From contig QXZU01000066.1 of the NCBI GenBank assembly GCA_009886205.1, positions 33,932-69,287 on the forward strand: a stretch of 35,356 nt of DNA, in the 5' to 3' direction. The position numbers were made by a program, and so were the translations under genes. A model generated the notes under the pieces. It was not told the DNA's origin, ran no database searches, and worked only from the letters and a program-made list of their open reading frames with translations. This DNA comes from K189A clade bacterium. GTDB lineage: Bacteria > Pseudomonadota > Gammaproteobacteria > Pseudomonadales > Azotimanducaceae. Below are positions 33,162 through 35,172 of the stretch, in pieces (the stretch's first letter is position 1; each line of letters begins with the position of its first letter).

Positions 33162-34373
33162 ATTAATTCTAGAAATGGTTATCTGTTAGCGATCTCCTCT
33201 TGGTATGCGGCCTTCGGTATGCAGTCTGTGCTGTTTGCGTGGCTGGTCACCATTGTATTGCGCGAGAGCGCTGAGCGTGTTGGCTTGGCGCAGATGTCGG
33301 TGCTTTTACCGGGCTTGTTCCTAATCCTTATTGCCGGGGTTTTGGCCGATCGAATAGGCCAAAAACGTCAGGCTATATGGTCACAGCTGTTCGCGGCAGT
33401 TCTGCCATTGTTGCTGATCTTCGCGTTACTGTTCGACGCTTTGTCTTATCCTGTGATGATTGTTTACGCTTTGCTGATGGGGGTAGCGCAAGCATGTTTA
33501 ACCCCAGCAAGAGACGGGCTGTTGAACTTGGTTGCGGGACAAAATGTTCAGCGCATGGTCATGCTCACTAGCCTCTGCCAGTTTGGTTTTCAAATTCTTG
33601 GTTATACCTTGGCGGGTTTCGCTGACTCAGTAGGGCCTGTATATATTCTTAGTTTTCAAGCCGTTATCTTACTCTTAGGCACCTGGGGATATTTCCAGTT
33701 GGGCGAAATTGGTCGCCCAGTGGTGGTGGCAAAAAACGATCGCGAGACCGTACTTAAAGGTTTGTGGGAGGGCGCCTCCACAGTGCTTGGCAACCCGGTA
33801 ATGCGGGCGGTGTTGATTCAGAACATTGCCATGGGCTTCTTCTTTATGGGCAGTTTTATTGTTGCCTTCCCTTTAGCTATACGCGAAGTATTTGCCGGTT
33901 CTTCCGCTGATTTGGCGGCCCTCAATGCGTTGAACTCCCTGGGCTTGGTTTTAACGATATTGGTGTTGTTGCGGGTGGGCTATGTTTCCCGTGCAGGTCG
34001 GGCCCTGATCCTAGCCCAAGGTATTGGATCAATGGTGTTAATGAGCGCAGGTTTTGTCTCCAATCAAATAGTGTTTACCAGCCTTGTTTTTGTCTGGGGT
34101 ATTTGCGGCGGTCTGGCCATGCCCATGTCTCGGACTTTACTGCAGCAGTTGGCACCCCCCAATCAACGCGGGCGGGTGATGAGCTTTTATGCATTTTCCT
34201 TTATGGGCGCAGGTCCATTTGGTGCTTTGCTCAACGGCTACATGTCAGACCTATATGGCCCTCAGCAAGCCATTATTTTTTCTGGGCTTGGGATGATTAT
34301 CGTTTTGCTAGTGGTGTCTTCAGTGAGTCCGCTCTGGCGCAATGTCATCATTAATGATGAGGCCAAAGCTTAA
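33162..34373 (+). CDS. MFS exporter, EntS-like, with apparent ATT start
   Basis: A ~403-residue permease of the same group as the protein at 16251-17519. PGLFLILIAGVLADRIGQKRQAI (motif A), PARDGLLNLVAGQNVQ and LAPPNQRGRVMSFYAFSFMGAGPFGALLNGYM are clear. The first ATG is 33219, but that would remove half of helix 1: upstream in-frame codons read SRNGYLLAISSWYAAFG, matching FRAYLGSTGFSGMALAM of the paralogue. No ATG, GTG or TTG lies between the upstream stop (33108-33110) and 33219. ATT at 33162 is preceded by GAGGTG with a five-base spacer, so ATT is the best start; CTG at 33183 lacks a ribosome site. The conservative call is 33219-34373 (384 residues). It follows the BVMO gene by 162 bases; efflux or uptake of its substrate is possible. 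Confidence 0.8.
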   Translation: MNSRNGYLLAISSWYAAFGMQSVLFAWLVTIVLRESAERVGLAQMSVLLPGLFLILIAGVLADRIGQKRQAIWSQLFAAVLPLLLIFALLFDALSYPVMIVYALLMGVAQACLTPARDGLLNLVAGQNVQRMVMLTSLCQFGFQILGYTLAGFADSVGPVYILSFQAVILLLGTWGYFQLGEIGRPVVVAKNDRETVLKGLWEGASTVLGNPVMRAVLIQNIAMGFFFMGSFIVAFPLAIREVFAGSSADLAALNALNSLGLVLTILVLLRVGYVSRAGRALILAQGIGSMVLMSAGFVSNQIVFTSLVFVWGICGGLAMPMSRTLLQQLAPPNQRGRVMSFYAFSFMGAGPFGALLNGYMSDLYGPQQAIIFSGLGMIIVLLVVSSVSPLWRNVIINDEAKA

Positions 34374-34786
34374 CTGCGTGAGAGCAGGGTAGGGCTGTGA
34401 GTTCGGCGCAGGTTATATCCGATAGACGACGCGTTAGAAAGGTAGCTTGAGTGTGACGATGAGGCTGGGTGCTAGCTAAGGCGCGAGAGAGTTTGATGGC
34501 GCGCAATAGGGTTGTAGGTTCACCTGTTGTGCGAATTTAGCAGCTTAAGCCTGCTGGCTCTGGTGGTAGGTGTGACGACAAAGTGTTCGTCTGACGGGGT
34601 AGAAGCGGATTACAGAGGCGTTTGGAATAACGCTTATAGGAAAAACCCTTCAAGTAACGCGCTCCAGATAGCTTTCTCTAAATAGCGGCTTATAAAGAGT
34701 TGTGCGCAAACTTTCTAACTCTCCAGTTTCTGACTCTCCAATTTCTGACTTTCCAATTTCTAACACTCCACTGTTTAACACTCAAA
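34374..34786. repeat. Gene-free stretch ending in a 15-base tandem array (34712-34786)
   Basis: No gene, RNA or promoter could be supported in 34374-34711. It is followed by five imperfect 15-base units (TTTCTGACTCTCCAA type) at 34712-34726, 34727-34741, 34742-34756, 34757-34771 and 34772-34786; the last is strongly diverged. Confidence 0.8.
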
Positions 34787-34797
34787 AAGTGTCCCCC

Positions 34798-34828
34798 AAA
34801 TAAAAAGGGCCGGTTAAAAACCGGCCCT
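34798..34828 (-). terminator. Minus-strand intrinsic terminator
   Basis: A perfect 10-bp stem AGGGCCGGTT/AACCGGCCCT (34806-34815, 34819-34828) with a three-base loop. On the minus strand it is followed by TTTTTATTT; the plus-strand side has no T-tract, so direction is clear. Confidence 0.9.
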
Positions 34829-34919
34829 CATTGCTCGTATGTGAGGAGCAACTAAGAAGGTTGTCCCTCGAAACTTGCAATAGATACCACTGATCACCTC
34901 CTTTAGTTGTTGTTAATTG
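34799..34919 (-). ncRNA. Candidate ~120-base small RNA with anti-16S sequence
   Basis: Bounded by a minus-strand promoter and an intrinsic terminator. The 5' end is unstructured and carries AACAACAAC (an A-rich Hfq/Crc-type word), then AAAGGAGGTGATCA, complementary over 12 bases to the 16S rRNA 3' end. A hairpin TTGCTC/GAGCAA (34846-34851 and 34831-34836) precedes the terminator stem. It may be a small RNA, a mini-gene message, or both. It lies between an MFS gene and tRNA-Gly with no downstream reading frame it could serve as leader for. Confidence 0.5.
34852..34890 (-). CDS. Candidate 12-residue mini-ORF with perfect Shine-Dalgarno
   Basis: GTG at 34890 reads VVSIASFEGQPS then TAG. It follows AAGGAGGTGATCA (34903-34891 on the minus strand), the full complement of the 16S rRNA 3' tail, with six bases between AGGAGG and GTG. 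It lies inside the short transcript described at 34799-34919. Such a ribosome site is far stronger than any other in the window. No homologue is recognised; it may be a leader-like peptide, or the site may act only as RNA. Confidence 0.35.
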   Translation of the reverse strand: MVSIASFEGQPS

Positions 34920-34926
34920 AACCCTG

Positions 34927-34954
34927 ATTATGTCCCAAGGTGGGCATATTGCAA
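34927..34954 (-). promoter_or_regulatory. Minus-strand sigma70-like promoter of the small RNA
   Basis: On the minus strand TTGCAA (34954-34949), a 16-base spacer and CATAAT (34932-34927). Expected start near 34919, which puts the ribosome site about 16 bases from the 5' end. Confidence 0.6.

Positions 34955-35096: not shown

Positions 35097-35172
<76 letters not shown>

Follow-up and report, generated by a model that had tools for sequence, protein, structure and literature searches.

A short conserved gammaproteobacterial unit with an extended Shine-Dalgarno site and a putative 12-codon ORF shares the architecture of the Rfam RNA CC2171

Introduction

Several small bacterial RNAs are known to combine an RNA with a very short reading frame. 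Spot 42/SpfP is a small free-standing dual-function sRNA with a 15-codon ORF and an ordinary Shine-Dalgarno (SD) site. The small dual-function RNA rnTrpL/peTrpL of Sinorhizobium meliloti is derived from an attenuator and contains a translated 14-aa ORF (PMC10117765, sections available to us). A uORF leader of a DUF1127 gene, also from S. meliloti, has been proposed to monitor ribosome availability, and its ribosome binding site pairs with early codons (available part of PMC12218461). Ribosome profiling in Caulobacter revealed that two predicted ncRNAs are translated while most ncRNAs are untranslated, as far as described in the accessible text (PMC4117421). The RNA named CC2171 (RF01867) is filed by Rfam as an sRNA, and no paper on a coding function of CC2171 was found in the open-access literature.

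Here we describe a small putative transcription unit from the contig QXZU01000066.1 of a marine K189A clade gammaproteobacterium, of which a stretch of 35,356 nucleotides was analyzed as a whole (the window). As regards its architecture, this unit represents a shortened version, found in Gammaproteobacteria, of the RNA called CC2171 by Rfam.

Results

The unit is located on the minus strand at positions 34798-34954 and occupies about 155 bases including the promoter; the predicted RNA is about 120 nt long. It begins with a putative sigma-70-type promoter TTGCAA-16-CATAAT (34927..34954), composed of a -35 element (34954-34949), a 16-nt spacer and a -10 element (34932-34927). The start site inferred from the -10 element lies at about 34920, giving a predicted 5' leader (34891..34920) in which AACAACAAC was read at about 34914-34906. 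An extended SD site of 12 bases, AAGGAGGTGATC (34892..34903), precedes the 12-codon ORF MVSIASFEGQPS, which occupies 34852..34890 with the stop codon included (GTG at 34890-34888, TAG at 34854-34852). The 3' part of the ORF forms the 5' arm of predicted hairpin 1 (34830..34881), whose loop contains or borders the stop codon and whose 3' arm is GTTGCTCCTC...GCAAT. Finally, the terminator scan revealed an intrinsic terminator hairpin with the G+C-rich stem GAGGGCCGGTT/AACCGGCCCTT and a T tract (34798..34829). The order of the parts on the minus strand is therefore the AACAACAAC leader, AAAGGAGGTGATC, the GTG ORF ending with TAG, a hairpin and the terminator hairpin. All the parts named in an earlier sequence-only reading (promoter, SD, GTG...TAG ORF, two hairpins, T tract, no gene downstream) were found again when the minus strand was re-read.

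Upstream of the unit and outside it, a divergent tRNA-Gly(GCC) gene is located on the plus strand at 35097..35172. There is no co-directional gene downstream of the unit in the window, the next gene being a convergent one for an MFS transporter (33219-34373). A tandem array of 3.9 copies of the 15-base sequence TTTCTAACTCTCCAA was observed at 34712-34770, just downstream of the terminator. Across the window, only the two tRNAs were matched by Rfam at the gathering level.

Taken alone, the promoter and the terminator are unremarkable. The promoter matches at 9 of 12 positions, and the scan of the region gave two promoters compared with a shuffle mean of 1.4, i.e., no better than chance; likewise, two terminators were found against a shuffle mean of 1.1. 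The fold of the unit is modestly stable (z -2.46). What distinguishes the unit from a chance arrangement is its conservation. An inverted repeat between the -35 element and the ORF (CTTGCAATA/TATTGCAAG) was dropped from consideration because other clades do not keep it.

The conservation in close relatives on which the sequence-only reading had staked the unit beforehand was indeed found: with the unit DNA as query, matches were revealed in 31 of 36 same-genus genomes (E <= 1.8e-9). The same query gave no convincing match in 21 genomes of other families (best E 0.044). The unit is real and conserved. In an alignment of 28 units, AAGGAGGTGAT, the start codon and much of the ORF are nearly invariant, the tail being less so. 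The -35 and -10 elements are kept in the genus as TTG.. and CATAATC, and a large part of the family has looser versions of them.

The distribution in the family was studied in two ways. A sequence-only model covering the part of the unit from the promoter to the ORF matched 50 of 150 family genomes at E<0.01. A model-free pattern of SD plus start codon was present in 60 of 119 family genomes, compared with six for the reversed control, and absent from the other 59, about half. By reading, 53 of the 60 pattern-positive genomes have the unit (one masked, one cut by the contig end), and the other seven contain only genes or stray sites. Among 34 loci that were read, 15 family units, the window's own unit and L205 fit; the other 17 (long genes or very short or context-free ORFs, six of them with 4-16 codons) were not counted as units.

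Beyond the family, the SD+RTGTCT pattern was found in one of 175 genomes of the class, and therefore this signature is rare in the other gammaproteobacterial families sampled. When named genome contigs were scanned with a pattern, 33 stretches were obtained. Every one belongs to a record titled as a metagenome-assembled genome, and most are labeled Gammaproteobacteria or Pseudomonadales, two K189A clade and one HTCC2089. Structure model R1 matched 15 of 390 genomes of the order; among its 11 matches outside the genus, only the one in G295 (L054) has an SD site, and the ten without it were dropped as chance. Model R2 matched four of 398 genomes in the phylum, and three of these matches were judged on reading not to be units. 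The RNAalifold consensus paired the SD region differently and was left unused as evidence.

In many other genera, the leader carries GTGTCGGGCAACAA or a similar sequence, the ORF begins with TCT or soon reaches it, and the tail is freely replaced. The exact AACAACAAC leader proposed by the sequence-only reading as part of the unit is confined to the closest relatives of the window; elsewhere it gives way to other sequences such as GTGTCGGGCAAC, a CAACAA-like core recurring in some of them.

To characterize the SD site, we compared it with 16S 3' tails. The search for the 16S tail in the own assembly gave no match, and relatives were used instead. GGATCACCTCCTT was revealed at the true 16S 3' end in seven of nine relatives searched, one of them from the same genus; in the remaining two, the match in G008 (L209) is not 16S and G025 gave no match. 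The SD site is complementary over 12 bases to the tail of the relatives, and therefore the complementarity claimed initially holds for the lineage. AAGGAGGTGAT occurs only once in the own 2.97-Mb assembly, at the unit, and the first 11 bases of the SD are invariant in the genus alignments. Engagement of the 30S subunit would fit the long SD combined with an ORF.

The same features could serve a 30S decoy, an RNA whose main task would be to sequester 30S subunits by means of the long SD duplex and whose peptide would have no importance. The invariant 11-nt SD core, unique in the own assembly, is what one would expect of such a decoy, and many units have a GC-rich stretch between the -10 element and the start codon, which we take to resemble growth-controlled promoters. 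However, an RNA made from a single locus would need extreme abundance to matter, and the synonymous excess and the stop placement described below would be left without explanation. We therefore give this decoy little credence.

To evaluate coding potential, we compared 70 units, which represent 15 genera and include 32 members of the window's genus. All were selected by exact AAGGAGGTGAT, so that the invariance of this sequence in distant units is partly due to construction; L023, L024 and L139, affected by N runs or a contig end, were excluded, and G539 was not included. The first in-frame stop occurs at 10-15 codons in all 70 units, a range fixed after the data were seen, compared with 10 and six units in frames +1 and +2. 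As the units are related, these counts are not independent; with one unit taken per genus, shuffled sequence is expected to give 12-18% each. The stop codons vary between TAG, TAA and TGA and stay stops even where the following sequence has wholly changed.

We then compared 19 distinct ORFs from the genus, using only pairs that differ at <=8 sites. Synonymous changes make up 53% of the single-base codon differences in frame 0; the corresponding values are 14% and 19% for frames +1 and +2, and 26% (sd 10) after permutation of the columns (p=0.003; 300 permutations). This synonymous excess indicates that the peptide itself is constrained within the genus, where its consensus is M-[IVL]-S-I-A-S-F-E-G-Q-[LP]-x. 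Between genera the peptide differs (e.g., MSIANFEGRQS, MISTVEGCISS, MQSFVGGNPL and MNLAANAGGLVA). These comparisons demonstrate that the ORF frame is, as judged from its substitution pattern, under selection. The micropeptide suggested by the first reading gains support, since both the frame and the length of the ORF are conserved, as is part of its sequence within the genus; thus, the unit is most likely translated.

Folding from the start codon gave a hairpin with the 3' part of the ORF as its 5' arm. The stop codon overlaps the loop of this hairpin in 22 of 31 representatives, hand-chosen from the 70 units and from nine of 15 further family units. When the test point was shifted by 6-15 nt, overlap was found in 0-8 of the 31; a shift by +3 nt gave six and by -3 nt 21. 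In 57 of the 70 units, vs 55% of shuffles, no more than 4 nt separate the stop from the apex, and this is true for half or more of the units in 14 of the 15 genera, the exception being genus g31 (one of seven). As to the covariation proposed earlier as a check, pairs with changes on both sides were seen within the genus for the terminator helix (five of 12 pairs) and not for hairpin 1 (none of ten). The case for hairpin 1 rests on separate folds of lineages with different arms, and not on covariation in an alignment. In these predicted folds, the end of the ORF itself builds the hairpin, and the stop codon is usually placed at its apex or close to it.

A purely non-coding sRNA, whose SD-like stretch would pair with other RNAs or bind CsrA/RsmA or Hfq and whose ORF would be a by-product, has to be weighed against these data. 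The sequence AAGGAGGT presumably resembles the CsrA motif, the leader contains AAC repeats, and sub-threshold Rfam matches to SorY (25.2 bits) and mmgR (20.6 bits) were obtained for the unit. Such a reading would also agree with the filing of CC2171 as an sRNA and with the report that most Caulobacter ncRNAs are untranslated, although the same source, in the part available, describes two predicted ncRNAs that are in fact translated (PMC4117421). A by-product ORF would hardly be expected to keep its frame in 70 of 70 units, to show a synonymous excess and to place its stops at hairpin loops. We regard a purely non-coding RNA as improbable, if marginally less so than the decoy.

We next consider the genomic neighborhood. 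The tRNA-Gly gene adjoins the unit in nine of 20 related genus loci scanned, other genes being located beside the remainder. Within the window's genus, 16 of 21 loci (window included) have a convergent ORF as the next one downstream. When only downstream ORFs of >=70 codons are considered, the nearest is co-directional in 26 of 69 units overall. As the neighboring genes differ while the unit persists, it looks autonomous. In several other genera, a gene for a luciferase-like oxidoreductase (identified by Pfam on one representative and by BLAST cluster for the rest) is located downstream on the same strand: in six of seven g23, four of seven g31, one of one g24 and one of five g166 units (L118, L120-L122, L134, L136-L138, L140, L142, L143, L150).

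This arrangement fits a leader role in those genera, i.e., an attenuator in which a ribosome on the mini-ORF controls readthrough into the downstream gene. The S. meliloti uORF attenuator, a proposed monitor of ribosome availability according to the accessible part of the source, offers a precedent (PMC12218461). Against a general role of this kind, the next ORF is mostly convergent in the genus and co-directional in only a minority of units, the unit persists beside different neighbors, and a terminator is present in the window. A conserved co-directional gene after a conditional terminator, as in leader peptides and attenuators, was found neither in the window nor in its genus; a co-directional gene does recur in some of the other genera. 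We consider this explanation the least probable of the alternatives. The sequence comparisons show that a putative promoter, the extended SD, the start codon, an ORF of narrow length, its stop and a terminator-like hairpin are kept together while the neighbors change.

Two individual loci deserve mention. In L124 (genus g144), the unit lies between a divergent rsgA gene and a same-strand RF-1-domain gene, which we take to be ArfB-like. In L110, sub-threshold Rfam matches to mir-4520 were obtained on both strands of a near-palindrome at 1385-1450, near the unit; a microRNA in a bacterium is not credible.

Longer look-alikes were revealed by a third model, built on a diverse family set. They carry AAGGAGGTGATCCARTGTCTA.. 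and occur in families f15, f44 and f41 of the same order (E about 0.0007-0.05). By reading, 13 of 22 loci are of this type (L161-L163, L166, L167, L169, L171-L173, L175-L178). In all but one of the 13, the ORF has 22-25 codons, compared with 12 codons in the window's unit. The ORF lies inside a long hairpin followed by a terminator-like hairpin in most of 11 loci folded. No common downstream gene was seen among the f15, f44 and f41 look-alikes, and in the 12 loci scanned (all but L177) none of the Rfam models reached its gathering cut-off. Genus g149 from the window's own family also belongs to the AAGGAGGTGATCCARTGTCTA.. type.

CC2171 matched the window's unit with 21.4 bits (E 0.013), below the gathering cut-off of 75 and outscored by SorY, whose cut-off is 111. 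No match at E<=0.001 was obtained with the CC2171 model in 19 genomes (the own one, 12 of the same genus and six of the same order). In the phylum, the model matched 52 of 289 genomes at E<=0.001, ten of them above the cut-off, and control matches were obtained in Caulobacter vibrioides. We read 25 CC2171 loci (L180-L204). All of them have an RTG-TCT start, and 24 have exact AAGGAGGTGATC. The first stop occurs after 14-27 codons in 25 of 25 loci, compared with nine and seven in frames +1 and +2. Their predicted folds contain long hairpins followed by terminator-like hairpins. When 110 nt were folded, 16 of 25 alphaproteobacterial loci, vs 37% of shuffles, had the stop no more than 4 nt away from the apex; this measure depends on the length folded, a shorter stretch giving nine of 25 without a shuffle control.

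Five of these loci (L196, L197, L199, L200 and L203) have the ORF MSxTKRCHLAGIAR or a close variant, MSYLKRCHLAGIAR. They adjoin a divergent tRNA-Gly(TCC) gene, cf. the tRNA-Gly(GCC) gene of the window, perhaps by coincidence.

Reading and folding revealed the same order of parts in CC2171 and in the window's unit: leader, extended SD, hairpin over the ORF, terminator. The CC2171 model matched two of 15 gammaproteobacterial loci, both below the cut-off and over the SD and ORF; L205, from another gammaproteobacterial family, scored 38.8 bits (E 7.7e-5), and L246, a g149 unit of the window's family, scored 30.9 bits (E 0.0066). The similarity of alpha- and gammaproteobacterial leaders is weak (eight of 25 above the control's 95th percentile). 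For these reasons, common descent of the alphaproteobacterial CC2171 and the gammaproteobacterial units is likely but not proven. That they share a working plan is clear. The description of the unit as an orphan, given by the sequence-only reading, applies to the missing downstream gene and no longer to the RNA, which is family-wide, has look-alikes in other families and probably extends to Alphaproteobacteria.

Discussion

Our data make it fairly probable that the unit yields a micro-mRNA of about 120 nt that is autonomous, may also be a dual-function sRNA, belongs to a CC2171-like superfamily and is translated up to a stop codon at a hairpin apex. Transcription would be carried out by sigma-70 RNA polymerase from the unit's own promoter and would stop at hairpin 2. 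The 30S subunit would dock through an SD:anti-SD duplex of 12-13 bp, and the ribosome would open hairpin 1, read 10-15 codons and terminate at the hairpin apex. Hairpin 1 would stay open as long as a ribosome occupies the stop codon and would refold in the absence of ribosomes, so that the RNA would have two forms, ribosome-loaded and unloaded. The output may be either a micropeptide or a ribosome-dependent state of the RNA. We slightly favor a translation-gated RNA over an effector peptide acting on its own, since the peptide changes from genus to genus more than the architecture does. The synonymous bias argues that the peptide probably matters too, at least in the window's genus.

Furthermore, it can tentatively be hypothesized, as a possibility that we rate clearly below even, that Alpha- and Gammaproteobacteria contain a previously unrecognized class of free-standing translation-gated RNAs. 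Its members would have an SD duplex of 12-13 bp, an ORF of 10-27 codons and a stop at or near the apex of the ORF's own hairpin, and their shape (and stability or partner binding) would report ribosome availability. If this is true, CC2171, filed as non-coding, is one branch of the class and the window's unit is among the shortest members. In any case, a 155-base oddity becomes a conserved RNA family, and an sRNA filed by Rfam, CC2171, is suggested to be a micro-gene. Genes of this kind, with 10-15 codons and their own promoter and terminator, are unlikely to be detected by standard annotation. Since units of the CC2171 type are present in laboratory-tractable Alphaproteobacteria, the role of the extended SD and the hairpin-embedded stop is directly testable there.

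Among the known systems, Spot 42/SpfP is similar to the window's unit in anatomy, as a small free-standing RNA with a mini-ORF, and differs from it by an ordinary SD. The rnTrpL RNA, as presented in the available sections of its description, is leaderless and derived from a trp attenuator, whereas the window's unit has an extended SD and no biosynthetic gene (PMC10117765). The uORF leader of the S. meliloti DUF1127 gene controls a downstream gene, probably in a Rho-dependent manner according to the part of the paper at hand (PMC12218461), in contrast to the window's unit, which appears autonomous and has a predicted intrinsic terminator. CC2171 differs from the window's unit in its longer ORF (14-27 codons), its longer hairpin and its Rfam filing as an sRNA. 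At the same time, it shares with the unit AAGGAGGTGATCC, a leader of the CAACAA type (at some loci), the RTG-TCT start, a mini-ORF folded into a hairpin and a terminator-like hairpin.
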